Assembly: GCA_938034375.1 (NCBI GenBank)
Contig: CALHLB010000044.1
Span: forward strand, 1 to 52,807
Source: an uncultured Alphaproteobacteria bacterium
Lineage (GTDB): Bacteria > Pseudomonadota > Alphaproteobacteria > Rhizobiales > JACESI01
DNA length: 52,807 bases
Direction of reading: 5' to 3'
Shown in pieces: positions 34,179 through 49,388 of this stretch. A program made the translations under genes and the position numbers. The notes under the pieces are model-generated. The model searched no databases, was not told where the DNA came from, and was given only the letters and a program-made list of their open reading frames with translations. Each line of letters starts with the position of its first letter. The stretch's first letter is position 1.

Positions 34179-34195
34179 CCATTTTACCTTTAATT

Positions 34196-34498
34196 CTATC
34201 GCCCACTGCGCGCATCTACGATAACGCGCCCTGCCTGACCATTTGTTTTAACAATTGTTAAAATATAGACAAGGCGATTTCCCCGATGACAAAGTTGACC
34301 ACCAATCACATTGCTGTTTAAACGGTTGCTAACCAAACGGGCAACGACACCAAAACGCTTTGCTTTTCCGCTAGAAATAGCCTGTTGTTGTTGAGCAGGC
34401 CCAAGGCAAGTCTGAGCATGTGCCTTATTTTCCTGAAATGGAAAAAAAACATTCAAGAACAACGAGAAAAATAATAAGAGTGTAAAAGTTTTCATCAT
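34196..34498 (-). CDS. Small PepSY-like periplasmic protein
   Basis: A 100-residue protein with a clear Sec signal (MMKTFTLLLFFSLFLNVFF, cleavage near KAHAQ). The mature part has two cysteines (TCLGP, QLCHRG) and ends with YILTIVKTNGQAGRVIVDARSGR, the closing strand pattern of PepSY-like proteins. ATG 34498 is chosen because the signal peptide starts there; the longer frame has no sensible N-terminus. It precedes feuP by 17 bp and is probably co-transcribed; such proteins often modulate the neighbouring sensor kinase. Confidence 0.75.
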   Translation of the reverse strand: MMKTFTLLLFFSLFLNVFFPFQENKAHAQTCLGPAQQQQAISSGKAKRFGVVARLVSNRLNSNVIGGQLCHRGNRLVYILTIVKTNGQAGRVIVDARSGR

Positions 34499-34577: not shown

Positions 34578-34799
34578 TTACTTTTGTTTATCGTTAAAAC
34601 AAAGTGAGCGCCAAGCGGCATTATGTTCAATAATTTGCGTTGAAGTTTCCTTTGTATCCCCCTTAGACCATAAAATTGGTTTAAAAACATCACAACTTAA
34701 ATCAGTCGCGGCGAAATCCATCGTTTGGCAAGCCGACAGAAGAAGCGTTAAGCTCATCAGGCCTATCCAGCTCAAGACGCGCTTTTCTGCGCGCCTCAA
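34578..34799 (-). CDS. Rz1-like outer-membrane spanin lipoprotein (candidate)
   Basis: From TTG 34799 the product is 73 residues: a lipoprotein signal (MRRAEKRVLSWIGLMSLTLL) with lipobox LLSAC, then a short mature part containing DLSCDVFKPILWSKGDT and HNAAWRSLC. The pattern PI-xxS-xxDT-xxT-xxQI-xxHN-xxW-xxLC is one I associate with small phage lysis lipoproteins next to Rz. Its first part overlaps the preceding gene out of frame (34702-34799), the classic Rz/Rz1 arrangement. The start is uncertain: ATG 34757 would give too short a signal, and the TTG has a poor ribosome site. Confidence 0.58.
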   Translation of the reverse strand: MRRAEKRVLSWIGLMSLTLLLSACQTMDFAATDLSCDVFKPILWSKGDTKETSTQIIEHNAAWRSLCFNDKQK

Positions 34800-34944
34800 G
34801 AGCTTTTTCAAGATTTGCCTTATAATCTTGTAAAACAAGAACACCATCAAAAACCTGCTTTCTTCGTTTGCGGATTTGATAAAATTTAGATAATTTCTCA
34901 ATCAGACGAAAAAGGCCAAGAAAAAGACTTATAATGCCTGCCAT
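34702..34944 (-). CDS. Rz-like inner-membrane spanin (candidate)
   Basis: An 80-residue protein with an N-terminal hydrophobic segment (MAGIISLFLGLFRLIEKL) followed by a long charged helix (about 20-68, KRRKQVF ... NLEKALEARRKARLEL) suited to a periplasmic coiled coil. Its ATG overlaps the holin stop codon (TAATG), implying coupled translation, and an Rz1-like lipoprotein gene overlaps its 3' part. Size is smaller than lambda Rz. Position and architecture, rather than sequence identity, support the call. Confidence 0.55.
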   Translation of the reverse strand: MAGIISLFLGLFRLIEKLSKFYQIRKRRKQVFDGVLVLQDYKANLEKALEARRKARLELDRPDELNASSVGLPNDGFRRD

Positions 34945-35150
34945 TAGCCTACCCTCTGTTCTGCTTTCAAACGTCCATAAAGCGCTATAAAAGCGCCAAT
35001 AGCCCCTGTTATTTGCAAGATAGCCTCGCTAATTACCGCCTGTTCCTGTTCTGAAATCATCAATCCAAATGTCGAACCTATAGAAGCTGCGATGGCAATC
35101 AAAGCCCCCCAGATTGTACGTGATTGATACCATGCTTTTGAAGAATTCAT
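34944..35150 (-). CDS. Small phage-type holin (candidate)
   Basis: A 68-residue protein with two membrane segments (about 12-32 and 42-60) and the pattern WYQSRTIWGALIAIAAS ... IGAFIALYGRLKAEQ, resembling a holin family common in alphaproteobacterial phages (QSRTIWG near the start, YGRxxA at the end). An AGGAG site lies 7 bp before ATG 35150. It begins 17 bp after the g15 stop on the same strand, so it is expected to be transcribed with the GTA genes and to permeabilise the inner membrane at particle release. Confidence 0.68.
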   Translation of the reverse strand: MNSSKAWYQSRTIWGALIAIAASIGSTFGLMISEQEQAVISEAILQITGAIGAFIALYGRLKAEQRVG

Positions 35151-35167: not shown

Positions 35168-38100
35168 TTAAAGTTGAAATTTTTCGTGCCTTGCAATGCC
35201 GGCCCCTTCCAAGGCACTAAGCTGTGTTATGCTTGCCTCAATTTCCTCTGGCAGAGCACCAAAATCTATCTGCTGATTTACAGCGGAATATATGGCTTCG
35301 GAAATAAAGGTTTCAAGCGTGCGTAATTTTTGCAAACCATGCCATATGGTAAGTTCATAAGCCTCACTTTCTTCTCCGAGAGGGACATCTGGCACCTCCC
35401 ACAAATCACCATCAATGCGCGTTCGCCTGATCCATTTAAAATGAATATTACCTGTTTCATCCCGCATTGCCTTGAAATGAACTGGTGACAGTGGGCGCAA
35501 TCCCCGCCGTTTTGGATTTACTGAAAGAGATGTTGTAAATTCGTCTGTTAAGTCTTGCCCCAAAAGACCAACGCGCAAATTAAAGGGCCTTTCTGCTTCC
35601 TGTCTTGTGATATCCAGACTTTCGATAGCCCCGTTCAGTAAGACAATACGAGTCCCAACTGTAAAGCCAGCTTTCATGGCATCTTCTGTGCCAGCCTGAG
35701 CTCTTAATAATCTGGAAAGTCGCCACCTATTCACACCAATAAGCTCTGCCTCACCAAATTGCAGAATTTCCCAGCTACCTTTAAGGGATTTTATAGCTAA
35801 AACATTACGACCGGAAAAAAGCAGGGCATCTTCAACGCTTGATAGATGAGCATTGGGTATATCGATAATAAGATGGTTTGCAACATCGAAAACACCTAAA
35901 ACCCCTGCCCTTAACGGCTCTAAAAGCGTACCAAGATTGGCCGGTCTTTCAAGAGTTTGCCTTAATGAAAAGCCTGTTTCACTTTCTGAAAAAAAGACGG
36001 GCGACCCGCCAGGCCATGGCTTTGCGGCAATTGCAAGGCTTGGCGCATGGGGCTGTTCATCACCACGCAACAAGGGTAAATCCAGTACCTCTACCAAGGG
36101 AGAACCAGAGACCAATGCGGGCGTATTGCTTGACACACGTCCCAAACTTTTTGCCGCATTTCGCACCTGTTGCACTCCTGAAACAAGGCGGCTTTCAATG
36201 CGTCTTTCAATTCCTTCATCAATCTGGCTGACAATAAACCGTTTAGATTGCCCTTCTTCTTCAATTGCGAAAATGTCACCCACTTCAATATCAAGCCTTG
36301 ATTGGGGCAAGGCAAAAGCAAAGCGTTCTCTCTCCAGCCATAAAGATTGTAACCAGCCCTCAATTACCGGCAAAACCCTATCATAAGATGTTACGATGGG
36401 AAGCTGTAAGGCTCTCACGCGCCTACTCTCTCCCACCAAGCGACGGGATGAACAGGCAACAGCACGAAAATCTGTATCAATGTCTTGGTAGGTTAACGTT
36501 AGAACTGATGGCAACTCACTTTCTTGCTCTCGTTGATGGCGTCTTTCAGGGGCATTTTCCAAAGTCAGAAAATCCTCTGTTGTAAGAACGATTTCCGCAT
36601 TTCTAGCTCTTGGTTTTGCTTTTAAAAGTCCTTTTTCTTCGCGCACATCAATTTGGAAGGTCTCCAGAAGATTTTCCAGAGCGTTACGACCAGAAACTCT
36701 ATCTGAGATAACGTAGCCATCAATAACCTGATGAATATCACGAACATCAACACGTTGAGTGCTGTAAGTATTCACGATGTCTTCAATAAGTTCAGCAAGA
36801 GGAACCCCTCCCAGGCGGCCATTTAACCAATGGCCAAAACGCCAGTTTTCATAATCAGCCCACACCTCTTTAAAATGAGGAAAAGCAGGGTAAGGCCGCG
36901 CATCCCATGTCCATAAATAAGCCCGACTCATATCCACCATAGGTCCACCATAATGCTGCGAGGCGGGATTATTTTCCTCCTTCTGCCAATAGACATAGGA
37001 AGCCTCCAAACTGGCGCGTTGTATTGCATCATCACGAACAGATGATGAAAAATAGGGAATAGCGCTTTCACTGGAACGCGGGTCGAAAAAGACGTTGGGT
37101 TGGTTGGTTCCCTTATCAATGGCTGGGCATCCAAGTTCGGTAAAGACTATTGGTTTTGATTGGGGTATCCACGGTGTCGCGATGTCACTTTCAACACCAT
37201 TCGGACGGTTAAAATGTTTGTTGCTCCACCAATTTACCAAATCTTTATAACGAAATACCCATGGCTTCCCATAAGCGCCATCCGTTATGGGTGCTCTAAT
37301 TTGCTGGGTGCGACTTTCTTCGCTGTCATAAAACCAGTCATAACCTTCGCCACCCGCTATATTGGCTTTAAGATAGTCTTGGTGGTGTCCTGTAAGGGCC
37401 TCATCACTATCCAGATGCATTTCGCCATCGCGCCAATCGGATTGAGGCATATAATTATCAATACCAATTACATCAATAGTGTCATCAGCCCATAAAGGAT
37501 CCAGATGGAAAATCACATCGCCAGAATTATCTTGCGGGTGATAACCGAAATACTCGCTCCAGTCTGCCCCATAGGTAATAATCGTATTCGCCCCCAAGAT
37601 TGCACGAACATCACGTGCCAATGCAATTAAACCCTCCACAAAAGGGTGATGGCCTGTATTATCTCTCAACCATGTAAGGCCCCGTAACTCTGAACCAATG
37701 ATAAATGTATCAACACCGCCGGCAGCCCTGCATAGGTTAGCAGCATGCAGGATAAACCGGCGATAACCGAAATCACGGTTTAAAAAAGTGTTTATCTCTC
37801 CACGAACATTTGCGGTTTTATCTGTCGTTCCAGTAAGGGAAGGCGCAATAGAAGATGTTATTCTACCGCGCCATGGATAAACCGGTTGCTCTTCCCTTTC
37901 AAGATAAGGGTCTAGCAAACCATTATTCTTTGGCACATCCATCATAATGAAAGGATTGAATGTTACTTTCAATCCTCTTGCTTTCAAATTACGAATTGTG
38001 CGTATCATACCCGCATCGGATGGCGTGCCACCAAATGCAGGCCCCCTGTTAATTTGCGAAACAACACCGGCATGAAAACGGCGTATCCCATCCACCTGCC

Positions 38101-39004
38101 AGTCATCCAGCAACAGATTACGAAAATTCACCTCTACCTTTGGTGTAATCTGGCATTCACCACAACGCAAATCATCGCCAAACCAGCTTGAAACAATTGA
38201 TACATGTTCAAGGTTCGGGCATAAGGCCTGCAATTCATCCAATGAGGCTTCCATATCTGTGGCCGCATAGGTTATATGGCGGTTATGGGCGTTAAATTCC
38301 CCTGCATTCAAGCGTTCTCTCGTAACAGAAGTGTCGTAAAGGAACTCTGAGGCCCCTGGAATAAGTTGTATAGCTTTGACTTCTTTTTCCAGCCTGCCTA
38401 TCGATCGCACAACTTCAAACGAAAGCTGTGGCAAACGATTACCATAAGGTTCAAGCGGCAATCGCTCAAAAACAATATAGGCTGTCCCGCGATAAGCCGG
38501 CGCGTTACCGGCTCCTTGCTTGGCAGAAATAAGACTGTCTGGTTGTTGGGTTTCACTTCCATTATAAACACGGAACGTTATTCCTTGCGTGTCTAACAAT
38601 TCACCATCTGCCCAGATACGCGCAATATGTGAAATTTCTCCTTCGCAAAGAGCAATTGCAAAATTAGCAAAATACGAAAATGTCCGGGTTGTGACACTTG
38701 GCCCTCCCCCTTTTCCGCCGCCTTGCTCTTCCTCACTTACGAATTCTTCAAAATCTGTTGCCCAAATCATTTGTCCTGAAAGGCGTGTGCGGCCAAATAT
38801 GCGTGGTATTGGCGACCCTTCCCGCGACTCTTGTACCGACAAGTCCGTTAATCTGGAGCCTTCAACAATTCTTTCTTCTGCAAAGAGTGACCTATCAATC
38901 ACATTGCCTGCCAATGCGCCGGCAGCACGCCCAATAGCAGACCCAGCGGGACCAAGAGATGAGCCGAGTGCGGCACCGGCCGTTTGTAAAATTAATGTGG
39001 CCAT
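35168..39004 (-). CDS. GTA baseplate megatron protein (RcGTA g15 homologue)
   Basis: A 1278-residue tail-tip protein, close to the usual length of about 1300. It opens with the small-residue-rich MATLILQTAGAALGSSLGPA typical of g15. A central TIM-barrel-like domain (about 430-760) includes IITYGADWSEYFGYHP and DVIGIDNYMPQSDWRDGE. A phage-tail hub-like domain follows (about 790-960, RVDVRDIHQVIDGY ... DIEVGDIFAIEEEG), then a C-terminal receptor/fibre-like part. It lies 3 bp after the g14 peptidase. Forms the central baseplate spike; intact, no frameshift. Confidence 0.93.
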   Translation of the reverse strand: MATLILQTAGAALGSSLGPAGSAIGRAAGALAGNVIDRSLFAEERIVEGSRLTDLSVQESREGSPIPRIFGRTRLSGQMIWATDFEEFVSEEEQGGGKGGGPSVTTRTFSYFANFAIALCEGEISHIARIWADGELLDTQGITFRVYNGSETQQPDSLISAKQGAGNAPAYRGTAYIVFERLPLEPYGNRLPQLSFEVVRSIGRLEKEVKAIQLIPGASEFLYDTSVTRERLNAGEFNAHNRHITYAATDMEASLDELQALCPNLEHVSIVSSWFGDDLRCGECQITPKVEVNFRNLLLDDWQVDGIRRFHAGVVSQINRGPAFGGTPSDAGMIRTIRNLKARGLKVTFNPFIMMDVPKNNGLLDPYLEREEQPVYPWRGRITSSIAPSLTGTTDKTANVRGEINTFLNRDFGYRRFILHAANLCRAAGGVDTFIIGSELRGLTWLRDNTGHHPFVEGLIALARDVRAILGANTIITYGADWSEYFGYHPQDNSGDVIFHLDPLWADDTIDVIGIDNYMPQSDWRDGEMHLDSDEALTGHHQDYLKANIAGGEGYDWFYDSEESRTQQIRAPITDGAYGKPWVFRYKDLVNWWSNKHFNRPNGVESDIATPWIPQSKPIVFTELGCPAIDKGTNQPNVFFDPRSSESAIPYFSSSVRDDAIQRASLEASYVYWQKEENNPASQHYGGPMVDMSRAYLWTWDARPYPAFPHFKEVWADYENWRFGHWLNGRLGGVPLAELIEDIVNTYSTQRVDVRDIHQVIDGYVISDRVSGRNALENLLETFQIDVREEKGLLKAKPRARNAEIVLTTEDFLTLENAPERRHQREQESELPSVLTLTYQDIDTDFRAVACSSRRLVGESRRVRALQLPIVTSYDRVLPVIEGWLQSLWLERERFAFALPQSRLDIEVGDIFAIEEEGQSKRFIVSQIDEGIERRIESRLVSGVQQVRNAAKSLGRVSSNTPALVSGSPLVEVLDLPLLRGDEQPHAPSLAIAAKPWPGGSPVFFSESETGFSLRQTLERPANLGTLLEPLRAGVLGVFDVANHLIIDIPNAHLSSVEDALLFSGRNVLAIKSLKGSWEILQFGEAELIGVNRWRLSRLLRAQAGTEDAMKAGFTVGTRIVLLNGAIESLDITRQEAERPFNLRVGLLGQDLTDEFTTSLSVNPKRRGLRPLSPVHFKAMRDETGNIHFKWIRRTRIDGDLWEVPDVPLGEESEAYELTIWHGLQKLRTLETFISEAIYSAVNQQIDFGALPEEIEASITQLSALEGAGIARHEKFQL

Positions 39005-39007
39005 AGC

Positions 39008-39454
39008 TTATTCCTTCAAAAGATTTGGGAACTGAAATGCATAATGAATACGCCGTTGCCACCAAGGAGAAAGATAAACCTCACTCACAGGTTGCCCCTC
39101 GCAGGCATGAATGAAACTTTCCTTTGACGATAAAAGAGCGATATGTTTGGCAGGCAGGCTGGCGCGCCAGCGAAAAAGCACACAATCCCCCTTATTCATC
39201 TGTGAAAGATTAAGAGGAGACATGAGACGCAAGGCAGCATCTCGCAGGGTTTCCTCACCTTTTGCCTCTGCCCAATCAGATGTATAAGCCGGCATTTTTT
39301 CAGGTTCATAACCATATAGACTGCGCCATATGCCACGTATCAACCCCAAACAGTCACACCCCACACCCAAACTACTTGCCTGATGATGATAAGGCGTGCC
39401 TAACCATTCACGTGCGATTTTTACAATCGCATCGCGTGTTATCTTATTTTCCAT
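39008..39454 (-). CDS. GTA NlpC/P60 cell-wall peptidase (RcGTA g14 homologue)
   Basis: A 148-residue NlpC/P60 peptidase that locally opens peptidoglycan at the tail tip. WLGTPYHHQASSLGVGCDCLGL contains the catalytic cysteine (C35), AKHIALL the catalytic histidine, and HACEG completes the site. ATG 39454 is used; in-frame GTG 39466 is possible. It lies between the g13 hub and the g15 megatron genes, as in RcGTA. It is also the only peptidoglycan hydrolase in the cluster, relevant to the lysis genes downstream of g15. Confidence 0.92.
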   Translation of the reverse strand: MENKITRDAIVKIAREWLGTPYHHQASSLGVGCDCLGLIRGIWRSLYGYEPEKMPAYTSDWAEAKGEETLRDAALRLMSPLNLSQMNKGDCVLFRWRASLPAKHIALLSSKESFIHACEGQPVSEVYLSPWWQRRIHYAFQFPNLLKE

Positions 39455-39477
39455 AAATTTTCTCACTTAATTTCGGG

Positions 39478-40368
39478 TTATCTCACAATTGGAGCACCAT
39501 TATTTGCTCTGCCTGAACGGGCAAAGCGATAGGCAAAATCATTACCTGGTATGTGCGGGAACCCCCTGAAATTGGTAACATTTTGAAATTTAGAACGACA
39601 TGTAGGAAAAAGCTTGTCGCATCCTGCAACAATTGAAAATCTATCGCCCGTGGATATGGGAACGGGCATGGGCAGCCATATTCTTATCTGTGTTTCATCA
39701 AGATGGGAAAACTGGCTTTCAACCTCAATTTCACGCCCCCTATTGCCCCCTTCAATCCAAGTTATAAGCCCTCTGTCAAACCAGCCATTTTCAAACGATA
39801 ATAACGCATCAGCCTGAAATGTTTGATTATCAAGTAAGGCTGTAACGGTACTTTCAGCCCTAAAAGCAGGATTATTAAGATTTACGCCGCAACGAGCATC
39901 GCCCAAATCAGCATCACAAGCATTTTCAAAAAGACGGCCCCTTACCTGATTTAACCTATGCATTAAACCACGTAGTTCCGCCCGAAATAGGCCATCTTCC
40001 AGCGTAACCTCGCCTAAATCGGCCACACGCAGAACAACAAAATCAGATGGATTTTGCCAATTCACCTTATAAATCGTAACTTGTGCATTATCGTAATCAC
40101 CAGCGCCTAGAGCGTTTTGTGATATAAAATCAGATTGCAAGGCTCCTTCAACTTCACTGGTATCAACCCCCAACCCCAAATTACTTATCGCTTCTGATGG
40201 CGTAAAACCCGATTGTGGTTGAAAGCGGATCCCTTCAATAACGATCACATCATCATGATCTGTAAACCCTTGTATCAAACCATCTTGGCGCTCAATTTTC
40301 CAACATTGGCATAAAGTGGTTGCACCGGATGCCAAGTGATTTTTGAAACTTTCTGAAAGCTCTCTCAT
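39478..40368 (-). CDS. GTA tail hub protein, DUF2163 (RcGTA g13 homologue)
   Basis: A 296-residue protein with the DUF2163 features WKIERQDG-xx-GFTDHDD near the N-terminus, GVDTSEVEGAL, CDADLGDARCGVN in the middle and GCDKLFPTCRSKF-NVTNFRGFPHIPG at the end. The paired cysteine clusters suggest a bound iron-sulfur cluster or disulfides, as reported for the RcGTA hub. Its start overlaps the g12 stop by 4 bp. Structural tail protein. Confidence 0.93.
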   Translation of the reverse strand: MRELSESFKNHLASGATTLCQCWKIERQDGLIQGFTDHDDVIVIEGIRFQPQSGFTPSEAISNLGLGVDTSEVEGALQSDFISQNALGAGDYDNAQVTIYKVNWQNPSDFVVLRVADLGEVTLEDGLFRAELRGLMHRLNQVRGRLFENACDADLGDARCGVNLNNPAFRAESTVTALLDNQTFQADALLSFENGWFDRGLITWIEGGNRGREIEVESQFSHLDETQIRIWLPMPVPISTGDRFSIVAGCDKLFPTCRSKFQNVTNFRGFPHIPGNDFAYRFARSGRANNGAPIVR

Positions 40369-41006
40369 ACGCGCACCTCAATAAGGGGAATAGAGGGAAT
40401 ATCGCCAGCATCAAAGTTTGAAAGGTTAATTTCAAGCCTATCTGTTGCAAAGCGCACAGGCACATCAAATTCGTATCCCGCCGTTATGGTTTCCCCTTGC
40501 AGAGGGGCTTTCAAAAAAATAATCTCACCCGTTTTTGCTTCAACTGAAAAATCATCTCCCTGATGTAATTCAAGACCATTAACAGCGATAAGAACCGTCT
40601 CTGATACAGGTTTTGAAATAATCCTCTCATAAGGTTGGTGCATATGGCCATAGATCTTTTTTAATTGATAGGACTTCGTTATTCCGTCACCTTCGCCAAT
40701 TTTTTGGTCATTTGCACTTATAACGTTTAAAGGCGCGCAGGATTTAAAATCCACGCGGTCGGAAAACCTGAATCCATAAAGCGCACCGCGCCTTTCCTCA
40801 AAGAAATCGATGATTGCGTGAATATCATTCACCGTTCGCACACCCTGCCCCGCATCATATTGACGACGCGCATGCGCCCAACGGGAGTTTCTCTCCTCAA
40901 AGCCAGACCCAAGTGTTACAATTTCAGTGCGCCTTTCTGGGATAATGGCAGCACCAAATGCTATGCGTTTTGGAAAACGCACCTCATGAAAAGAAGTTTG
41001 TACCAT
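40365..41006 (-). CDS. GTA distal tail protein, DUF2460 (RcGTA g12 homologue)
   Basis: A 213-residue DUF2460 protein. FHEVRFPKRIAFGAAIIPERRTEIV opens it, NSRWAHARRQYDAG follows and FFEERRGALYGFRFSDR is the family centre; the end RFATDRLEINLSNF is equally typical. It links the tail tube to the baseplate. It follows g11 by 15 bp and overlaps g13 by 4 bp. Confidence 0.94.
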   Translation of the reverse strand: MVQTSFHEVRFPKRIAFGAAIIPERRTEIVTLGSGFEERNSRWAHARRQYDAGQGVRTVNDIHAIIDFFEERRGALYGFRFSDRVDFKSCAPLNVISANDQKIGEGDGITKSYQLKKIYGHMHQPYERIISKPVSETVLIAVNGLELHQGDDFSVEAKTGEIIFLKAPLQGETITAGYEFDVPVRFATDRLEINLSNFDAGDIPSIPLIEVRV

Positions 41007-41021
41007 GAACGAAAACCTTTA

Positions 41022-41627
41022 TTAAAGCGTTCTTCTTGAGCGCTGAACGGCACGTGACAAAGCGCTTGTTACCTGTGCTTCAGAACGCCTGAACCCTGCT
41101 ATATCGGGCGTAGAAATATTTACGACAATAGAATTTCCACCCCGCACGCCACCACCATTATTGCCACCAATACCCAAACGGCCATCACTTCCTCTTTGCA
41201 AAGGAATGATAGCCTCTGGCCCTGCCTCACCTGCCACGCCAAGCCCACTGTTTAGGGGAAAGAATGATGGACTGGCAACAATTCCACCCTTAGCAAAGGG
41301 CAAAGCATTGGCAAAAGCAGAGAAAACCCCATTACCCGATGATGATGGGGAGCGCCCTCCTTTCGAAAAGGAAGACAACAAATTATTCAGCCCTCCAGAA
41401 AGTAAATCCTGCAAAGGTTTTAGGCCATCTTTCAAAGCATTTGAGGCTATATTTTGAGCAAGCGAGCGAAATAAATCGTCCAAATCTTCTCCCTTAATTA
41501 CAGCATTTGAAAGGGCATTTGCTATATTGCGTCCGAAATTTTTGGTAACATTATCCAAACTTCGCAAGGAACGCATTGCTTTATCTGTATTTGCCTCCAC
41601 CTCAATGGTGACATTTTCAACCGTCAT
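41022..41627 (-). CDS. GTA tape measure protein (RcGTA g11 homologue)
   Basis: A 201-residue short tape measure protein, as expected for the short GTA tail. The N-terminal half is helical (VEANTDKAMRSLRSLDN, GRNIANALSNAVIKGEDLDD, SLAQNIASNALKDGL), followed by a Gly/Ser-rich stretch, and the typical GTA end AGEAGPEAIIPLQRGSDGRLG with a basic tail. Lies between the tail assembly chaperones and g12. Length matches the roughly 200 residues usual for g11. Confidence 0.92.
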   Translation of the reverse strand: MTVENVTIEVEANTDKAMRSLRSLDNVTKNFGRNIANALSNAVIKGEDLDDLFRSLAQNIASNALKDGLKPLQDLLSGGLNNLLSSFSKGGRSPSSSGNGVFSAFANALPFAKGGIVASPSFFPLNSGLGVAGEAGPEAIIPLQRGSDGRLGIGGNNGGGVRGGNSIVVNISTPDIAGFRRSEAQVTSALSRAVQRSRRTL

Positions 41628-41648
41628 TACTCAAAACCTCTCTAATCA

Positions 41649-41876
41649 TTAGGGCTGGGACTGAAGAACAGGCTTGTCAGGGAAGTCCTTTACCAAGCGC
41701 TCAAAAGAGGCGCGAGATAAAGGGCGATGAGATTCATGGCCATAGACTTTCATTGCACATTTTATTTCACGCAGTGTCATCGCCCAAAAGTCATTGCTGG
41801 AAAGTTTTAATATGCCAAAACCAAAAGCCATCACCTCGTCCCACGGGATAAGATTTTGTTCTTTTTCTTGCGTCAT
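41649..41876 (-). CDS. GTA tail assembly chaperone (rcc01693-like, g10.1)
   Basis: A 75-residue protein with the family signature IPWDEVMAFGFGILKLS followed by FWAMTLREI. In RcGTA a gene in this position acts with g10 as a tail assembly chaperone pair. Its ATG overlaps the g10 stop by 4 bp (ATGA). The tail beyond residue 45 is variable. Confidence 0.85.
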   Translation of the reverse strand: MTQEKEQNLIPWDEVMAFGFGILKLSSNDFWAMTLREIKCAMKVYGHESHRPLSRASFERLVKDFPDKPVLQSQP

Positions 41877-42190
41877 GCTTCCTGATTACCAAATGTTGCC
41901 AGAAGAAGTTTTTGAGCGAGAGTAACAAAGCCTGTAATACCTTCATCGATCTGCATGAGCAGCACATCTTCATTACTGATTTTATGCCCCCCTCCCCTTA
42001 AACCGGCCCCGATAAGGCGGGCTAAATCCCGACTGGAAAACGTTCCTTTTTCAAAGTGGCGGGTAAGCGCCATTAAACTTTCAAGCTCAAACGCATCTTC
42101 CAACTCCGCCAAAGCCCCAAGGGTAAGGCATAATTTATAAGTCTTTCCATTAAGGTGAGCCTCAATCTCTCCACGCTTTTTATTAACCAT
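41873..42190 (-). CDS. GTA tail assembly chaperone (RcGTA g10 homologue)
   Basis: A 105-residue protein: NKKRGEIEAHLNGKTYKLCLTLGALAELE is characteristic, as are DLARLIGAGLRGGGH and VTLAQKLLLATFG. It is a GTA gp10-family tail assembly chaperone. The start overlaps the g9 stop (TAATG) and its end overlaps g10.1, so the three are translationally coupled. Confidence 0.9.
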   Translation of the reverse strand: MVNKKRGEIEAHLNGKTYKLCLTLGALAELEDAFELESLMALTRHFEKGTFSSRDLARLIGAGLRGGGHKISNEDVLLMQIDEGITGFVTLAQKLLLATFGNQEA

Positions 42191-42606
42191 TATAAGCTTG
42201 CCTGAAAGGTTATGGCGCCAGCAGATTCAAGCGCGAGTTCAAAGGTAACTTCTGCATCGTGATTACCTGAAAATTCAAGGGCTGTTATCTGGAATGCCCC
42301 TTGCAGGATACCAAAATCAGGTAGAATGATCTGCCAGTTTTTAATATCACCGGCAAAAAACACATCCCGAATAGCTTCATCTGATGCGCTATCCTTGAAC
42401 AAGCCAGAACCGGAAATAGAAGCTGAACGCACACCCGCCCCCGATAAAAGCTCTCGCCAGCGGTTAGAACTATCCGCATGGGTAATATCTACGCTTTGTG
42501 CATTGAAAGAAAGCTGCTTTGAGCGCAATCCGGCAACTGTGGTAAAACCACCATCGCCATCATGATCCAGTTTAAGAAGTAAATCCTTACCTTTTTGGGC
42601 AGTCAT
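42190..42606 (-). CDS. GTA major tail tube protein (RcGTA g9 homologue)
   Basis: A 138-residue TP901-1-type major tail protein: MTAQKGKDLLLKLDHDGDG, TVAGLRSKQLSFNAQSVDITHADS, WRELLSGAGVRSASISGSGLF and the closing YxxxALESAGAITFQ-like strand are all family marks. It forms the tail tube. It follows g8 after 25 bp. Confidence 0.94.
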   Translation of the reverse strand: MTAQKGKDLLLKLDHDGDGGFTTVAGLRSKQLSFNAQSVDITHADSSNRWRELLSGAGVRSASISGSGLFKDSASDEAIRDVFFAGDIKNWQIILPDFGILQGAFQITALEFSGNHDAEVTFELALESAGAITFQASL

Positions 42607-42631
42607 TACGAAATCTCCTGTGATTTATTAT

Positions 42632-43054
42632 TTAAAGAAGTTCGATAAAGGCGCGAAACCGCATGGTACCGCGCTGCGTTAAACGGTCACGCTCAAGCGC
42701 AACATCTGATAAATCTTCTGAAAGATTAACGAGGGCGAAATCAGGTAAAACAAGATTTTGCCCCTCTAAAATAAAGCGTACCGATTGCATTATTTCATAA
42801 ATTTGTTTCCGTCCTCCTGCCTGTGATAAAAGATTCAAGCTAAACCTGCACTCATAAGCCTGATTATTATCAAGTGTTTGGTTGCGTGTTGAAAAAGAAC
42901 CAAAGCCAATATAGGGAAAGCTGGCATTGAGCGGCGGCGTATCATAAATCCTGTCGCCCACACTTTGCTGTAAAAGAGGACTATCAAACAGCGTTTGAAA
43001 AACAGCTTTTTGCAAAGCATGTTCAACGCTGATTACAAGAGATGTATCAGACAT
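42632..43054 (-). CDS. GTA tail terminator, DUF3168 (RcGTA g8 homologue)
   Basis: A 140-residue DUF3168 protein: ALQKAVFQTLFDSPLL, IYDTPPLNASFPYIGFG, and the closing DRLTQRGTMRFRAFIEL are typical. This family caps the tail tube at the head side. It lies between the small extra ORF and g9. Confidence 0.92.
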   Translation of the reverse strand: MSDTSLVISVEHALQKAVFQTLFDSPLLQQSVGDRIYDTPPLNASFPYIGFGSFSTRNQTLDNNQAYECRFSLNLLSQAGGRKQIYEIMQSVRFILEGQNLVLPDFALVNLSEDLSDVALERDRLTQRGTMRFRAFIELL

Positions 43055-43072
43055 TTTTTAAGTCGTTTCTAT

Positions 43073-43303
43073 TTAAGAAGTAACAATAGCGCGGGTTATC
43101 TTTTGCAATGCATCGCTGGACAAACGGGTTGATCGTACATCAACAATCCCAAGATCACCGGATAAATACGTTTGAACCTCGTCTGGTGACAATGCTTTTT
43201 CCAACCGCGTAGAAAGCCTTGCAACATACATCATTTGCCTGTCACGCACCTGTTGTTTGAGGCGCTTTTTTAAGCGCCTGGACACTGTTATTATGGCATC
43301 CAT
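43073..43303 (-). CDS. Small basic protein between g7 and g8, unrecognised
   Basis: A 76-residue basic protein (from ATG 43303) that I cannot assign. Its ATG overlaps the g7 stop by 4 bp (ATGA) and it ends 18 bp before g8, so it is embedded in the coupled head-tail block and is probably real. It begins with an Arg/Lys-rich helix (MDAIITVSRRLKKRLKQQV), then a second helix and a C-terminal SSDALQKITRAIVTS. Standard RcGTA has no gene here that I recall, though HK97-type phages place a neck protein (gp10 family, nearly twice as long) at this point. It may be a reduced version. Confidence 0.65.
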   Translation of the reverse strand: MDAIITVSRRLKKRLKQQVRDRQMMYVARLSTRLEKALSPDEVQTYLSGDLGIVDVRSTRLSSDALQKITRAIVTS

Positions 43304-43638
43304 CACCCTTCCTCCCTGCACAAGCAGGTTAGAAAACGTTGGTTCTCCAGCTTATCCGTGACAGCCAGAATTTTTAAGGAGCGCCCACGATATAAAAATC
43401 GCATGCCTGCCTTAATGTCATTTCGAAACCGAATGATAACCTCATGGCTTGTTTCTTGATGCAAGTTATCGCCAATATTTGTCAAACGTTGGTTTTGAGG
43501 GGCAATATTGGCCCATAAATAAGCCCGTACTGCCCAACTTTTAAGAAACCCGCCAAGGCCATCAGCTGTTTCAACTTGTTCTTGAAAAATGAGACGATGT
43601 TTTAACGTGCCTGGATTCGTAAATTTTGCACCTACCAT
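43303..43638 (-). CDS. GTA head-tail adaptor / head closure protein (RcGTA g7 homologue)
   Basis: A 111-residue SPP1 gp16-like adaptor. NPGTLKHRLIFQEQVETADGLGG near the start, AVRAYLWANIAP, SHEVIIRFRNDIKAGMRFLYRGR and LKILAVTD are standard. Its ATG directly follows the g6 stop codon. Joins the connector to the tail. Confidence 0.92.
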   Translation of the reverse strand: MVGAKFTNPGTLKHRLIFQEQVETADGLGGFLKSWAVRAYLWANIAPQNQRLTNIGDNLHQETSHEVIIRFRNDIKAGMRFLYRGRSLKILAVTDKLENQRFLTCLCREEG

Positions 43639-44214
43639 TTAAAGCCTCACACAACGGTAAGGCGCAATGAGAGCATCAACCCCTTTGGGTGTTGGGCTTA
43701 AATTAAAATCAGCAGAAACTTCCGAACGATTTTCATACCAATGAGCCACCAGCATCAACACGGCTTGACGCAAATCTCGCGGCACATCAAGCGTGGTTAT
43801 TCCAAAACCGACCTGAAAATCAATTTCAATACCATTGAGGGCTTTTTTGGGCGCTTTGATGACAGTGGGACGAAACTTGATTCGTGCAGGATGTGATGAA
43901 ATATCGGAGACATAATCCTGTGGCTCAATCAGCTTTGGCATCCCCTCTCCGTTATAGAAAGTAACCTTGTCAATAGAAACCAAAGGACCAAGGGGAATTT
44001 CCAAAAGTCCATCTTCAGGAAGGGTATCTGCATAAAAACGCCAGGTTTGCTGTAGGAAAATGCGTTTTGTTAGGCGCTCAACATGCAGCCTTGCTGTCGT
44101 AATGAGAGCTTTTAGAAGATCATCTTCATTATCGCTATCAAGGCGTATATGTAATTTGGCCTCAGTTAATGAAACTGGTTCCATGAAAGGACCGTTTAAC
44201 AAAGACAGTGTCAT
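43639..44214 (-). CDS. GTA head-tail connector (RcGTA g6 homologue)
   Basis: A 191-residue HK97 gp6-like adaptor. EPVSLTEAKLHIRLDSDNEDDLLKAL opens it; LHVERLTKRIFLQQTWRFY and RQAVLMLVAHWYENRSEV are diagnostic; it ends near VDALIAPYRCVRL. A 170-bp gap with a terminator-like hairpin separates it from the capsid gene upstream, the only sizeable gap in the g4-g15 run. Confidence 0.93.
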   Translation of the reverse strand: MTLSLLNGPFMEPVSLTEAKLHIRLDSDNEDDLLKALITTARLHVERLTKRIFLQQTWRFYADTLPEDGLLEIPLGPLVSIDKVTFYNGEGMPKLIEPQDYVSDISSHPARIKFRPTVIKAPKKALNGIEIDFQVGFGITTLDVPRDLRQAVLMLVAHWYENRSEVSADFNLSPTPKGVDALIAPYRCVRL

Positions 44215-44248
44215 GTCTTTACTCCAAGATTTTATTTACAAAAGAATA

Positions 44249-44282
44249 AACCCCACCATGTGGGAGGAAACATGGCAGGGTT
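44249..44282 (-). terminator. Terminator-like hairpin between capsid and connector genes
   Basis: A 12-bp stem with two wobble pairs (44249-44260 with 44271-44282) and a 10-nt loop; read on the minus strand it is followed by TATTCTTTTG. Placed 102 bp after the capsid stop and 35 bp before the g6 start, it could partially end transcription so that capsid exceeds downstream products. A second, 9-bp stem (44292-44300 with 44334-44342) sits beside it. Confidence 0.6.
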
Positions 44283-44384
44283 CACAACGCACCTGAAGAA
44301 AATATTTTTATGAGAGATAAAGCTTCTTCAGGCTTTTATTTATGCTTTCACCAGCTCAAACTGGCCTGGCATAAATTTTGGGGT

Positions 44385-45671
44385 TTATGATGCGCTGAAG
44401 GTTAAAAGCTTAATGGCATCGAAATCTTGAACACCACCACCAACACGCTTCGTTGTATAGAAAAGAACAAATGGTTTAGCAGAAAAAGGATCACGTAAAA
44501 CACGCACGCCCAAACGATCAACCACCAAATAACCACGTGTAAAGTCACCAAAGGCAATTGCCGGGCTACCCACAGAAATATTGTGCATATCCTCACTTTC
44601 CGCGATAGGAAAATTCATCAATGTTGGTTTACCATCAATACCCGTGGCAGGCGCCCACAAGTAGTTACCATCGGCATCTTTCAGTTTTCTCAATTCTGCC
44701 TGTGTTCGCCGATTCATGACAAAATGAGCGTTCTGGCGATAACCGGCACGCAATTCATAAACAAGATTAACCAACGCATCACTATCGACAAAAGCGCCAT
44801 CGGCTCCCGTTGAAACTGTTCCTAAATTACCCCATGACCAACTGTCATTGGCAACGGTTGGGTAATCTAAAAAACCGCGCGGTCGACGATCTCCATTCCC
44901 ATGCACAAACGCTGCGCCTTCCTGTTCAGCAAAGGCAATTTGAATTTCTTCGGCCAACCATTCTTCAACATTAATTGCCGCATCATCCAGAAGGGCGCTT
45001 GTGGCTGCTGGCTGGGCAAAAAGTTCCATTGTTGGAAATTCAAGTTCATCCAATGTTGGGGCCGCTGTTTGGGTTCTGCTTTCGGTTTCCCCTACCCAAC
45101 CAACAGAAGGCCCGCTGATCGTAAAAGGTTTTTTATAAGTCGATGCTGTTACCTGTCGGACTGATGAAATTTCGCGAATAGGCGATATATCTGCCAGCAA
45201 CCTTCCAATTTGCGTTTCGGTTTCATGCGGTACCAAGTAACCCCCATCAGGATCAGAGCCAACAGAAAGCGCTTTTTCTTCCAGTCTGGAAAGCGAGCCA
45301 TAAGAACCGCTTGTTTGACCTTTTCTTACATATTGATCGAAAGCCTGTTTATGCTCACGCGCTGATGAAGAAAGCGGCAACGCATTCTTACCCATGGAAG
45401 GGCGTCGCTGTTTTAAGAGCAGCGTATCCATCGCGCTTTTTTGCTGGTCAAGCGCGCTGTTAATGCGGTTCATTTTCTCTTCTGTAAGAACATCCACCGA
45501 AACGCGGTTTTCAATCTCTGCCAACCGCTCATCATTGGCCTGTTTAAAAGCCTCGAATGATTGCATGAACTCGTCAAAAGCTTCAACAACATCCATGCTT
45601 GAAACAGGGCTTTCGTTCATAGGCTCCATTTTAGTTTCTGGCGCTTTTTGTTTAAATGTTACTTGAGTCAT
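44385..45671 (-). CDS. GTA major capsid protein, HK97 fold (RcGTA g5 homologue)
   Basis: A 428-residue precursor. The first about 100 residues form a helical scaffold-like delta region (VVEAFDEFMQSFEAFKQANDERLAEIENR) expected to be removed by the g4 protease. The HK97 capsid core follows (KALSVGSDPDGGYLVPHETE ... ISPIREISSVRQVT ... EIQIAFAEQEGAAFVHGNGD ... RGYLVVDRLGVRVLRDPF). Its start overlaps the protease stop by 4 bp. Intact with all expected segments. Confidence 0.95.
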   Translation of the reverse strand: MTQVTFKQKAPETKMEPMNESPVSSMDVVEAFDEFMQSFEAFKQANDERLAEIENRVSVDVLTEEKMNRINSALDQQKSAMDTLLLKQRRPSMGKNALPLSSSAREHKQAFDQYVRKGQTSGSYGSLSRLEEKALSVGSDPDGGYLVPHETETQIGRLLADISPIREISSVRQVTASTYKKPFTISGPSVGWVGETESRTQTAAPTLDELEFPTMELFAQPAATSALLDDAAINVEEWLAEEIQIAFAEQEGAAFVHGNGDRRPRGFLDYPTVANDSWSWGNLGTVSTGADGAFVDSDALVNLVYELRAGYRQNAHFVMNRRTQAELRKLKDADGNYLWAPATGIDGKPTLMNFPIAESEDMHNISVGSPAIAFGDFTRGYLVVDRLGVRVLRDPFSAKPFVLFYTTKRVGGGVQDFDAIKLLTFSAS

Positions 45672-46405
45672 AATTGTCCTTTAATCCTTGAAGACTGAAT
45701 TGCTTTTTGCAAATCGGCAGACGCTTTTTTGATTGAATAAAAAGCCTGGCTGTTTGCAGCTGTTTTATGCGTGATTTCTGATGCCGCTTCCCGCATGGCT
45801 TTCAGATTGTGATAACCGGAATGGATAACCACCCTGGCTTGCTTGCGTGATAACCCAGCGTCCTGCGTGAGCCATCGTTCAAATTCTCTTAAACTTGGTA
45901 ATTGACTGTTTGGCTTTAAAACCGATTTTACCGTATCCACTTGCGCCTTTGGCAACATGGGAAAGGTGACGACTGAAATTTCCCAAAGATCAACTTCATA
46001 TAAAAGACGTTGACCCCGCACACTGTCGCGTTTGCCTTTGACGGTTTTAAAACCGATAGAAAGACCATTTAGCCCGCCCTCTTTCATGAGGGCGTAAACT
46101 TCCCGCGCACGCTCTACAGCTAATGTTAAACGTCCTTTAACATAAAGCCCTTTTTCATCTTCACGGATAATATCCCAAACGCCAATTGGCTTATCTGGGT
46201 CGTGCTGAAAAAGCATCCGAACAGCACGTGCGCCATTTTTGGAAAGCGACTTTTGAAAAGCCCCTTTCATCATTACATCATGGCCTAAATCCTCTTTTCC
46301 AAACAGGCTGGCATACCCTGAAAATGTGCCATCTTCATCTAGTCGGGCAAGTTTTGTGCGGGCAAACTTATGTTCACCCCCGCCCATTTTTTTGTGCGAG
46401 ATCAT
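45668..46405 (-). CDS. GTA prohead protease (RcGTA g4 homologue)
   Basis: A 245-residue HK97-type serine protease that processes the capsid. FSGYASLFGKEDLGHDVMMKGAF, catalytic H68 in MLFQHDPDKPIGVW and S116 in GLNGLSIGFKTV are visible, and SVVTFPMLPKAQV is standard. A C-terminal extension of about 80 residues (RWLTQDAGLSRKQARVVI ...) resembles a segment seen in rhizobial versions. ATG 46405 is used; ATG 46387 is possible. Confidence 0.93.
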   Translation of the reverse strand: MISHKKMGGGEHKFARTKLARLDEDGTFSGYASLFGKEDLGHDVMMKGAFQKSLSKNGARAVRMLFQHDPDKPIGVWDIIREDEKGLYVKGRLTLAVERAREVYALMKEGGLNGLSIGFKTVKGKRDSVRGQRLLYEVDLWEISVVTFPMLPKAQVDTVKSVLKPNSQLPSLREFERWLTQDAGLSRKQARVVIHSGYHNLKAMREAASEITHKTAANSQAFYSIKKASADLQKAIQSSRIKGQL

Positions 46406-46476
46406 TCAATTTTCTTTCAGATTTTTTGAAATTTCTTATACCTTACAAAGGTTGTTCAGATCCTGAAAACGCGAAA

Positions 46477-46629
46477 CTAAATAATCTCTTCAGATTTTGA
46501 TTCAGGTTTTTCAAGCATATTTATTAAGCTGTTGCCAAAGTTGTTGAACACATCTTCATGATCTTCATGCGGAGATTCAAGAAATACGAATAATTTATTA
46601 AAAACATATACTTGCATAACTTTATACAT
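46477..46629 (-). CDS. 50-residue small ORF between g3.5 and g4, unrecognised
   Basis: A complete 50-codon frame whose ATG lies one base after the g3.5 TAA codon, with ACGGAA about 6 bp upstream inside the end of g3.5; this spacing suggests coupled translation. The product has a Tyr/Val/Phe-rich N-terminal half (MYKVMQVYVFNKLFVFLES), an acidic/His centre (PHEDHEDVFNN) and an acidic tail (KPESKSEEII). No signal peptide or known domain. It ends 71 bp before the g4 start. I know of no standard GTA gene here. Confidence 0.5.
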   Translation of the reverse strand: MYKVMQVYVFNKLFVFLESPHEDHEDVFNNFGNSLINMLEKPESKSEEII

Positions 46630-46630
46630 G

Positions 46631-46843
46631 TTATTTCCGTTCGTTAAAAAGTTGATTCAAGCGGTGCAATTGATGGACAAAGTCGTTAAAGCGATGATTT
46701 GATTTAACCAACTCTTTTAATGACCACACTAACAAAGCCGAGCTTGAGGCTGCCCATAGGAAAAGCGCTAAATGCGCCAAGTCACCGCGCTCTATAATCG
46801 AGTTAGTAATTGGCTCAATATTTTGAGGCACATTTCCCATCAT
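46631..46843 (-). CDS. Small GTA membrane protein (RcGTA g3.5 homologue)
   Basis: A 70-residue protein with one membrane helix. The stretch IIERGDLAHLALFLWAASSS followed by ALLVWSLKELVKSN-xx-FNDFVHQLHRLNQLF is the conserved pattern of GTA g3.5 genes. ATG 46843 or 46840 is chosen; the frame extends into portal sequence without support. It lies 43 bp after the portal gene. Function is unclear in RcGTA as well. Confidence 0.78.
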   Translation of the reverse strand: MMGNVPQNIEPITNSIIERGDLAHLALFLWAASSSALLVWSLKELVKSNHRFNDFVHQLHRLNQLFNERK

Positions 46844-46886
46844 ATAAAAACTATAACCGACACCGTGACGGAGGGGATAAGTTTCA

Positions 46887-48095
46887 TCATATTCCTTCTC
46901 CAAAGAGTGTGTCGCCCCCTTCAACCGGGCTATAATTGAGAGCGGCCCGTTTTTCATTGACGGTTAAAAAATCAGCCTCCAAAAGGCGTTGCAAACTTGC
47001 ATCCCGTTCATTTGACAAAGCCGAAATTCCCGTCTCATCAAAAGCCAGTTTTGTCTCTGGGCCATATAATTTTTGCACCCAGCTCTCTAAAGCCTGTGCC
47101 ATACGACGCAATAAAGGCAAAACGGTTTGACGCCAAAAAGCTTTATTGGCTTCTTGATAATTGGCATAAGAGTTATCACCCGGTATACCTAAAAGTTGAG
47201 GTGGCACACCAAAGGCCAAAGCAATTTCTCTTGCAGCTTGATTGCGCGCTTCAAAAAAATCCATATCTTTTGGCGAGAAGCTCATGGCACGCCAGTCAAG
47301 CCCCCCTTCCAAAAGCATGGGACGTCCGGCGTTTTCTGCCCCTTGAAAACTGGCTTCCAGCTCCCCTTTTAATCGTTCAAACTGATCATCGGTTAAATTC
47401 CCTTCCCCTCCCTGATAAACAAGAGCGCCTGATGGACGGGCTGCATTATCCAAAAGCGCCTTATTCCACGCACTTGAAATATTGTGAATATCAAGCGCCA
47501 TTTGCGCCGCTTCAACAGGTGCGAAACCGTAATGATCGTTCAGTGGATGAAACAAGGTAAATTGTAAGATTGGCGGAAAATCTTCGACCATCTGTTCAAA
47601 GCGAATAGTTTGGCCCCCCACGCTATAATCATAAGCTTCTGGCCATCCATCTTCACCTGCAACCACTTTCACACGATCAGGTCTTAAAGCATGGAGTTCC
47701 CGTAAATTATCGCCTAAAATTACAGCTTCCAAATAAGCATTTCCAGAGAGGTAAAGATTACTAACAAGCGCTTCAATCAATTCCATGCCTGATTGTTTCT
47801 CGTTAGGTTTTTTTAAAACAGATAAAACAGGGTGTTCATCCAACCTTTTTGCATTTTCATAAAGAAATAAAGGGACAGAGGCAGCAGCTTCTGCCACCAT
47901 TCGTATGGCACGAAAAACAATGACATTTTTCATGTAACCGACTTCTGCCAACGTGTTAAAATTTCGTGTTGTCCAGACCGGCTGTCCTTGTGACTGTAAA
48001 TAAACCAAAGGCCCCGTTTTCGAGGCCTTTTGATTAAGTTCATTTTCTATTGAAAAGGTGTCCCCGCCTTTTCCGCGTTGATTAAAAAATACCAT
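46887..48095 (-). CDS. GTA portal protein (RcGTA g3 homologue)
   Basis: A 402-residue HK97-family portal. Signature segments: VFRAIRMVAEAAASVPLFLYEN, HPVLSVLKKPNEKQSGMELIEAL, NLYLSGNAYLEAV, ASFQGAENAGRPMLLEGGLDW, FGVPPQLLGIPGDNSYANYQEANKAFWRQT (in parts) and the closing NEKRAALNYSPVEGGDTLFG. It forms the packaging ring at the unique vertex. It starts 18 bp after the terminase gene. Confidence 0.95.
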   Translation of the reverse strand: MVFFNQRGKGGDTFSIENELNQKASKTGPLVYLQSQGQPVWTTRNFNTLAEVGYMKNVIVFRAIRMVAEAAASVPLFLYENAKRLDEHPVLSVLKKPNEKQSGMELIEALVSNLYLSGNAYLEAVILGDNLRELHALRPDRVKVVAGEDGWPEAYDYSVGGQTIRFEQMVEDFPPILQFTLFHPLNDHYGFAPVEAAQMALDIHNISSAWNKALLDNAARPSGALVYQGGEGNLTDDQFERLKGELEASFQGAENAGRPMLLEGGLDWRAMSFSPKDMDFFEARNQAAREIALAFGVPPQLLGIPGDNSYANYQEANKAFWRQTVLPLLRRMAQALESWVQKLYGPETKLAFDETGISALSNERDASLQRLLEADFLTVNEKRAALNYSPVEGGDTLFGEGI

Positions 48096-48113
48096 TCTTC
48101 TTCCCGCATTTTG

Positions 48114-49388
48114 TTAAATGTTTCTGATCTTCGGATTTTTGTTAATAATCAGCATCAAGTCGCTTAAAGCCCAAACAAGTGCATCCAACCTGTCTGGTGA
48201 TTTGCCCGATGAAAGACCATCCAAACCAAAATCGCACAATTCATCTTCCAATTTCGGTAAACTGCCAACATGGTGGATAAGGCCGCGTTCATATAAAAGT
48301 GCAATTGGCTCTGCACGAATATATTTCCCTCGATTTGCCCGCACCGCTTTAACCGGCACCTGGGCATCCACCTGCTGCAAAATGGACGTTACCATATCAC
48401 CACCCTGATTAACTTCAGCAACGATCCTGCCTGCTTGATAAGTATGGTAAAGCTCAATGGCAGCCTTTGCCCACCTTAATGGAGCTGCCTGACTGAGTGT
48501 TTCATCTGCCAAAATATAAGCATGTCCATCAGGAGCAAGGCCAGCAACAACAAGGCCACAGGCATCTGATTTTTTGTGGGCGCTTACTGGTGGATCAATA
48601 GCAACAACCACACGCTCCAGTTCCGGTGCCTTTTTAACCATCAATTTTTCGATCTGATTACGTTGCCAAAGACTATCTTGCCTGTCTTCAATCAATTCAC
48701 CATTTAGCTCTTGGCGTCCTAGTCTAGACCCTTCATAGCGTTCTTTGACCATTTCCAGAAAACCTTCGGATAAATGGGCTGCATTCGCCATCGTGGTGCT
48801 TTTTGTTAAAATCGTATGAGGATCCCGCATCAAGCGGCACAAAAGGGGCATGGACCTTGGCGTTGTTGTAACAAGCTGGCGCGGCCTTTCGCCCAGTCTT
48901 AAACCAAATTGCAACATATCCCATGTTTCTTCTGCATAACGCCATTTACACAATTCATCCGACCACGCCACATCAAATTGCGGCCCCCTTAAACTATCTG
49001 GATCTTCTGATGAAAAAGCCTGGGCAATAGCACCGTTTTTCCATTCAAGCTGGCGTTGTGTTTTTTTCCAAATTGGCCTTTCCCATTTCCCATGAACAGA
49101 CAATATGCCCGAAACGCCTTCAATCATAACATCCCGCACATCTGCAAAAGTTTCACCAATAAGGGCTATGCGTCCAACAGAGCGACCACAAAAGGGACGG
49201 CGACCCAAAGCCATACCTTTTACCCATTCTGCCCCTGCGCGCGTTTTTCCCGCACCGCGCCCCCCCATAATCAACCATAATAACCAATTACCTAAAGGGG
49301 GAAGTTGATCTTTGCGCGCCCATAATGGCCAGTCAAATAGCAAAGTTTCATGTTGGGAACGGGTGAACCCCTTTAGAAGCTCACTCAA
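48114..49388 (-). CDS. GTA large terminase (RcGTA g2 homologue)
   Basis: A 424-residue packaging ATPase/nuclease. Walker A GGRGAGKT at residues 42-49, Walker B-like VAWSDEL, coupling motif LVTTTPRS, and nuclease acidic residues in VVAIDPPVSAHKKSDA, VAEVNQGGDMV and DRLDALVWALSDL. I place the start at TTG 49388: AAGGA lies about 6 bp upstream and it overlaps g1 by 8 bp. The frame stays open to 49448 but inside g1 without a ribosome site. GTA terminases package host DNA by headful cutting. Confidence 0.93.
   Translation of the reverse strand: MSELLKGFTRSQHETLLFDWPLWARKDQLPPLGNWLLWLIMGGRGAGKTRAGAEWVKGMALGRRPFCGRSVGRIALIGETFADVRDVMIEGVSGILSVHGKWERPIWKKTQRQLEWKNGAIAQAFSSEDPDSLRGPQFDVAWSDELCKWRYAEETWDMLQFGLRLGERPRQLVTTTPRSMPLLCRLMRDPHTILTKSTTMANAAHLSEGFLEMVKERYEGSRLGRQELNGELIEDRQDSLWQRNQIEKLMVKKAPELERVVVAIDPPVSAHKKSDACGLVVAGLAPDGHAYILADETLSQAAPLRWAKAAIELYHTYQAGRIVAEVNQGGDMVTSILQQVDAQVPVKAVRANRGKYIRAEPIALLYERGLIHHVGSLPKLEDELCDFGLDGLSSGKSPDRLDALVWALSDLMLIINKNPKIRNI

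Follow-up and report, generated by a model that had tools for sequence, protein, structure and literature searches.

The window, that is, the whole stretch of DNA that was analysed, corresponds to the entire 52.8-kb contig G000:C44 from the 2.5-Mb, 98% complete genome (G000) of a marine bacterium whose named relatives are Hyphomicrobiales and whose congeners include the MAG MCMED-G12. Profile matches place on its minus strand a head-tail cluster of the type found in the gene transfer agent (GTA) of Rhodobacter capsulatus (RcGTA), including a g15 gene of the GTA_TIM kind, and the flanks of the cluster are chromosomal in appearance both here and in the congeners. Three small genes follow g15, the final structural gene, on the same strand (Table 1). 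The next gene downstream codes for a secreted protein that was labelled PepSY-like by eye and has no family match; a response regulator and then a histidine kinase come after it, and these three genes together occupy positions 32168-34498. The order g15, lysis genes, PepSY-like gene, response regulator and histidine kinase recurs in nearly every relative examined, and this operon marks a conserved chromosomal address of the GTA. The PepSY-like gene is the boundary of the lysis block and lies outside it. A promoter and terminator scan of the block gave signals near background.

Table 1. Position of the probable lysis block, its internal features and the neighbouring genes in the window
Feature	Position	Strand	Basis
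PepSY-like secreted protein, 100 aa, next downstream of the lysis block	34196..34498	-	by eye
Rz1-like o-spanin gene, 89 aa	34578..34847	-	phrog_1275, phage relatives, start comparison
Codons of the i-spanin tail NDGFRRD, within the overlap with the o-spanin frame	34705..34725	-	conserved tail
Lipobox LSAC of the o-spanin (lipid-bearing Cys, residue 40)	34728..34739	-	sequence
Rz-like i-spanin gene, 80 aa	34702..34944	-	position, overlap with o-spanin gene, conserved tail
Holin-like gene, 68 aa	34944..35150	-	phrog_34682, phrog_4712, hydropathy, position
g15 (GTA_TIM hub/megatron protein, 1278 aa), final structural gene	35168..39004	-	PF13547 (3.1e-147), PF13550, PF23666
g14, NlpC/P60 tail peptidase	39008..39466	-	TIGR02219 (5e-54)
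Other head-tail genes: terminase, portal, prohead protease, capsid, connectors, tail genes	39478..49806	-	Pfam (PF03237/PF17289, PF04860, PF04586, PF05065, PF05135, PF11367, PF09343, PF09931)

The holin-like gene is separated from g15 by a gap of 17 nt, with the g15 stop codon ending at 35168, the holin ATG at 35150 and the sequence AGGAGA, a good ribosome-binding site, upstream of it. A sequence-only reading of this DNA had described a two-helix holin-like gene at exactly this distance, which proved correct to the base. The product has two transmembrane segments predicted from hydropathy (residues about 15-33 and 39-57), basic N- and C-termini and a short acidic loop, and its topology would be N-in/C-in. 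It matches two holin families among the PHROGs (phrog_34682, 7.9e-07; phrog_4712, 1.9e-04), with the holin of the congener G003 giving a stronger holin PHROG match (4e-9). Homologues occupy the equivalent slot in congeners and in other families, and the small size, the membrane segments and the basic tail are those expected of a holin, as is the neighbourhood of the spanin genes.

The last gene of the block encodes the Rz1-like lipoprotein. The longest open reading frame starts at a TTG (34901), and the best start is the ATG at 34847, where an ATG aligns in both congeners that keep the gene. The predicted signal peptide includes a basic n-region, a hydrophobic stretch and a lipobox, and 49 residues lie beyond Cys40. 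The protein matches phrog_1275, a family of Rz-like spanins (5e-13), and has phage relatives with 33-45% identity; homologous phage o-spanins include those of Escherichia phage Cyrano, Pseudomonas phage SS2019XI and Vibrio phages. In phages this o-spanin family adjoins holin and endolysin genes; in particular, the relative in Cyrano is annotated as Rz1 and sits in a holin-endolysin-Rz-Rz1 cassette. An alignment of 16 o-spanin sequences shows that C40, C52 and C83, namely the lipid-bearing cysteine and two cysteines of the mature domain, are invariant, and the lipobox pattern is present at 34 of 40 related loci. An AlphaFold2 model built from nine sequences (mean pLDDT 78, pTM 0.40) shows a long helix at the N-terminal end and a further one at the C-terminal end (residues 66-88) and is uninformative on function.

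Between these two genes lies the Rz-like gene, whose ATG (34944) has one base in common with the holin stop codon TAA (34946-34944). The Rz1-like frame overlaps it in a different phase and extends beyond it to 34578, the i-spanin gene coming first, so that both overlaps are those already pointed out from the sequence alone. The Rz-like protein consists of an N-terminal hydrophobic segment, a helical middle and the C-terminal tail NDGFRRD. The search against phage lysis families that had been proposed for the three proteins was borne out for the holin and for Rz1, while the Rz-like protein gave no match above noise among family models, PHROGs and phage sequences. Moreover, its N-terminal segment is marginally hydrophobic, with a mean of 1.45 over 19 residues and an internal Arg and Glu, whereas the segments of the congeners are stronger (mean 1.87-2.03) and the membrane segments of the phage relatives are clear. 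The membrane segment of the i-spanin is the weakest link in the spanin assignment, and the Rz-like frame appears to be an i-spanin on the basis of its context and a short C-terminal signature, which support this assignment.

This signature has been followed across the 40 distinct loci with an Rz1 homologue. At 36 of them the Rz1 frame is overlapped or abutted by an open reading frame in a different phase that is 50 codons or longer, has its stop in or beside Rz1 and has an end resembling D-G-[YF]-R-R-D; the pattern is convincing in at least 34, the loci L104 and L126 being doubtful and possibly lax-pattern matches. By comparison, among 4,800 positions drawn at random from this DNA, 2.25% show the pattern. 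The overlapping lipoprotein frame, a lack of conservation of which would have spoken against a lysis cassette, is therefore strongly conserved among relatives. Phage i-spanins encoded over homologous o-spanins end in RDPYDRD (Vibrio) and RDDWSRD (Pseudomonas). The tail is also kept where the two genes barely overlap (G023, L087, L092), with an overlap of only 4 nt in G023 and G133. Conservation of the tail as a mere by-product of the o-spanin frame is ruled out, since the tail persists at a 4-nt overlap or in another register, and the i-spanin tail is thus conserved for the sake of the protein itself.

A block of this kind is also present in the GTA clusters of relatives, which had been suggested as a place to look. 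In a sample of 397 genomes of the order, g15 was found in 265 and a relative of Rz1 in 59. Rz1 lies downstream of g15 in at least 20 genomes from eight families of Hyphomicrobiales (G000, G003, G005, G023, G085, G103, G119, G133, G148, G166, G174, G182, G205, G225, G238, G263, G315, G329, G361 and G366), linkage being defined as an Rz1 on the contig and strand of g15 and no further than about 7 kb downstream from where g15 matches. Among 385 genomes from the class at large, a single one outside the order (G495) had such linkage, and the association of spanins with the GTA is therefore order-specific in appearance. Homologues of the block occur at GTA and phage loci rather than mostly elsewhere.

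The slot between g15 and the operon of the PepSY-like protein, response regulator and kinase has three kinds of content among relatives. Complete cassettes with endolysin, holin, Rz and Rz1 stand behind g15 in G023, in Rhodomicrobium sp. R_RK_3 (G166) and in Acuticoccus mangrovi. The cassette endolysin is a TIGR02594 amidase in G023 and A. mangrovi, a GH108-like enzyme in G166 and G133, and, as judged by eye, an M15-like enzyme in G263. In the second kind an endolysin is accompanied by holin-like genes of other types, and a spanin was not recognised; among 61 relatives, 10 have GH108 adjoining g15. The third kind is the reduced holin-Rz-Rz1 arrangement seen in the window, which recurs in a single genus from a different family (L119, L121, L128). 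Cluster-attached lysis genes, with or without an endolysin, are common in the GTAs of Hyphomicrobiales and are not peculiar to this genome.

Several other arrangements were encountered at or near this slot. In several families Rz1 is followed by a gene resembling SleB or a cell-wall hydrolase (by eye), at L047:9165-9596 and at L117, L118 and L123, which is possibly a second wall enzyme of the cassette. At L059, L061, L066 and L054, all from Hyphomicrobiales, a single open reading frame after g15 combines TIGR02594/CHAP-like amidase and GH108 endolysin domains with an in-frame, two-segment holin-like C-terminus, which is preceded by an internal ATG and a sequence like a ribosome-binding site; L067 carries a GH19-like enzyme (by eye) with the same kind of holin-like fusion. 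These five frames are possibly endolysin-holin fusions with an internal start. The sewage-derived entry MW091529.1 ('Bacteriophage sp. 103231', L135) has the appearance of a chromosomal GTA locus that was submitted as a phage: it contains a response regulator, a holin belonging to the window's family and a gene similar to g15 (42% over 968 aa), with the regulator and kinase annotated as 'antibiotic efflux'. The congener G003 has, apart from its GTA cluster, another g15-like gene, which is divergent and has a frame of 1484 aa (G003:C11:65940-67313, L044).

As the sequence-only reading had stated, no endolysin gene is present within the block, and the NlpC/P60 protein g14 is the sole peptidoglycan enzyme found in the cluster. 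GH108 (PF05838) and Phage_lysozyme (PF00959), considered as the missing partner, have no match in the whole genus, and GTA_holin_3TM (PF11351), which we take to be the family of the RcGTA holin rcc00556, has none in G000-G003. The genome-wide search for an endolysin that had been called for found an orphan amidase on contig G000:C17 (3876-4607), with an N-terminal peptidoglycan-binding domain (PF01471) and a TIGR02594 domain (4.7e-32; also PF05257). Its matches to phage proteins reach 2e-29 and span 99% of its length. Identity is 72% with the copy in G001 and 64% with the one in G003, both of which are orphans as well, and 36% along the entire protein with the GTA-linked endolysin of G023 and with the endolysin of Rhizobium phage RR1-A. 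The motifs TPWCA, GHVGF and GGNQ, with the Cys, His and Asn positions, are conserved, and the C-terminus STNEA is the same or nearly so in the G023 and RR1-A endolysins. A signal peptide is not evident in the protein, and its gene is not surrounded by phage genes. The amidase tree groups it most closely with amidases from a different family (support 0.97), and some of these are encoded downstream of a second g15-bearing, prophage-like locus. Such second loci were seen in family f44 (L142 on G174:C1, L143 on G366:C3, G148:C24 and G342:C28), where they carry TIGR02594 endolysins of the clade of the orphan amidase together with apparent defence-type cargo genes. A comparison of the regions upstream of the amidase and of the GTA cluster recognised no shared promoter motif, only chance 9-mers. 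In G315, G329 and G238, which have the same reduced block, no TIGR02594 enzyme was found, and thus the partner enzyme must differ there. All in all, the orphan amidase is somewhat more likely than not to be the partner enzyme of this lysis module.

The four genomes of the genus form a series of losses. G000 and G003 have an intact GTA cluster, holin, spanins and amidase. In G001 (L045) the cluster has been deleted internally, from g3 almost to the end of g15, and the holin, the spanins and the amidase are kept, while G002 (L046) has lost the GTA almost entirely and most of the spanin block, with the flanking genes in place. The amidase is frameshifted in G002, and the other three genomes, in which holin and spanins are retained, have intact copies. 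The series, which comprises four genomes only, is consistent with the distant amidase being functionally linked to the GTA cluster, and such a natural sequence of states (intact, structural genes lost, all lost) represents a way to study GTA decay.

Taken together, the three genes quite probably represent those components of a phage-type lysis system, retained by the GTA, that act on the membranes, as the matches of the o-spanin and the holin and the conservation of the block behind g15 suggest; the lysis-cassette reading made from the sequence alone is upheld in this respect. From spacing and orientation it is plausible that the block is part of one transcript with the GTA genes, and read-through from the GTA operon would then express it. 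The holin would build up in the inner membrane and then open it, and a cytoplasmic endolysin devoid of a signal peptide, most likely the orphan amidase, would exit through the holes and cut the wall. Bridging the periplasm and fusing the membranes, thus freeing the particles, would then fall to the inner-membrane Rz-like protein and the outer-membrane Rz1-like lipoprotein. Lethality for the producer and a defined timing would presumably belong to such a release. More tentatively, in the GTAs of Hyphomicrobiales the holin and spanins of the cluster might fire with assembly while wall cleavage has come under separate control, the endolysin having become unlinked or, depending on the lineage, replaced by different enzymes, in which case lysis would need two independently controlled loci.

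The enzyme that cleaves the wall could also be g14 itself, acting with the holin-spanin module and making a separate endolysin unnecessary. The sequence-only reading had left the choice between a distant enzyme and g14. Besides g14 no wall enzyme was found in the cluster, and in a genus from a different family the block likewise has no endolysin. However, deletion of g14 in RcGTA leaves release normal and abolishes transfer, affecting entry and not exit (PMC3423380), which contradicts a role of g14 as the release enzyme, and an intact phage-type endolysin is present elsewhere in the genomes of the genus. The distant alternative is thus the one that stood, a distant endolysin being supported as a much better candidate than g14, and cleavage by g14 appears quite unlikely. 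It is similarly hard to attribute the block to envelope maintenance, or to envelope sensing together with the PepSY-like protein, regulator and kinase, as two small membrane proteins and a lipoprotein with no part in lysis. This operon is next to the block in nearly every relative and the i-spanin is without a family match, but the lipoprotein is a member of a phage spanin family that stands beside holin and endolysin genes in phages, and complete phage-type cassettes with endolysins fill the same slot in relatives; a non-lysis function is highly improbable.

The block might instead be an ancestral phage remnant without a present role, with release occurring otherwise, for example through an immune hub like LypABC. 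Indeed, the Caulobacter crescentus GTA is released by LypABC, an immune-system-like operon, through non-explosive lysis, and no holin or endolysin was found there (PMC13236601). In addition, G001 keeps intact lysis frames despite the loss of structural genes, so that intactness alone is no proof of use. Nevertheless, both overlapping frames, the lipobox and the tail are kept across eight families, neutral remnants would not retain a double-frame overlap, and G002 shows decay of the spanins and of the distant amidase along with that of the GTA, which makes a functionless remnant unlikely. A retained lysis module names a candidate endolysin and predicts deletions that should trap particles inside the cell.

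How GTA particles exit the producer is currently an active question. The parts described here are classical phage lysis parts, and neither their GTA setting nor their arrangement was found described; in the open-access literature on gene transfer agents and spanins, covered mostly through titles and abstracts, no GTA-encoded spanins were found. The spanin pair would add disruption of the outer membrane, a step for which, within the same scope, no GTA gene was found described. The block is conserved across families, including the named strains A. mangrovi B2012 and Rhodomicrobium sp. R_RK_3.

Phage two-component spanins include an overlapped class in SpaninDB, with lambda Rz/Rz1 as the embedded prototype (PMC6139136). 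The pair of the window resembles the overlapped class in its overlapping frames for a helical protein putatively of the inner membrane and a predicted outer-membrane lipoprotein, in an adjacent holin and in a homologous o-spanin; it differs in being GTA-encoded, in a cassette with no endolysin gene and in an i-spanin that is very short at 80 aa and has a marginal membrane segment. Furthermore, the SpaninDB survey found that i-spanin C-termini diverge where the genes overlap (PMC6139136), whereas here the D-G-[YF]-R-R-D tail is highly conserved inside the overlap. Among GTA clusters, those of the RcGTA type in Agrobacterium and Rhizobium have a lysozyme gene between terminase and portal (PMC11409702), and hence are similar in holding a phage lysis gene within a Hyphomicrobiales RcGTA-like cluster; a holin-spanin block behind g15, as in the window, was not found in the passages covered. 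In R. capsulatus the holin and the endolysin are encoded away from the cluster (PMC6209664, PMC8601537), in agreement with what the sequence-only reading had stated, and release needs this off-cluster endolysin gene (PMC3423380, PMC6209664). The phage-type parts and the off-cluster endolysin gene resemble rcc00555 (endolysin) and rcc00556 (holin), but here the holin is of another family and stands behind g15 with a spanin pair, and no spanins were found described for RcGTA. LypABC in Caulobacter solves the same release problem for a related GTA, but the locus described here carries a classical phage cassette. The cluster-attached holin and spanin pair thus represents a third organisation, besides those of R. 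capsulatus and C. crescentus.
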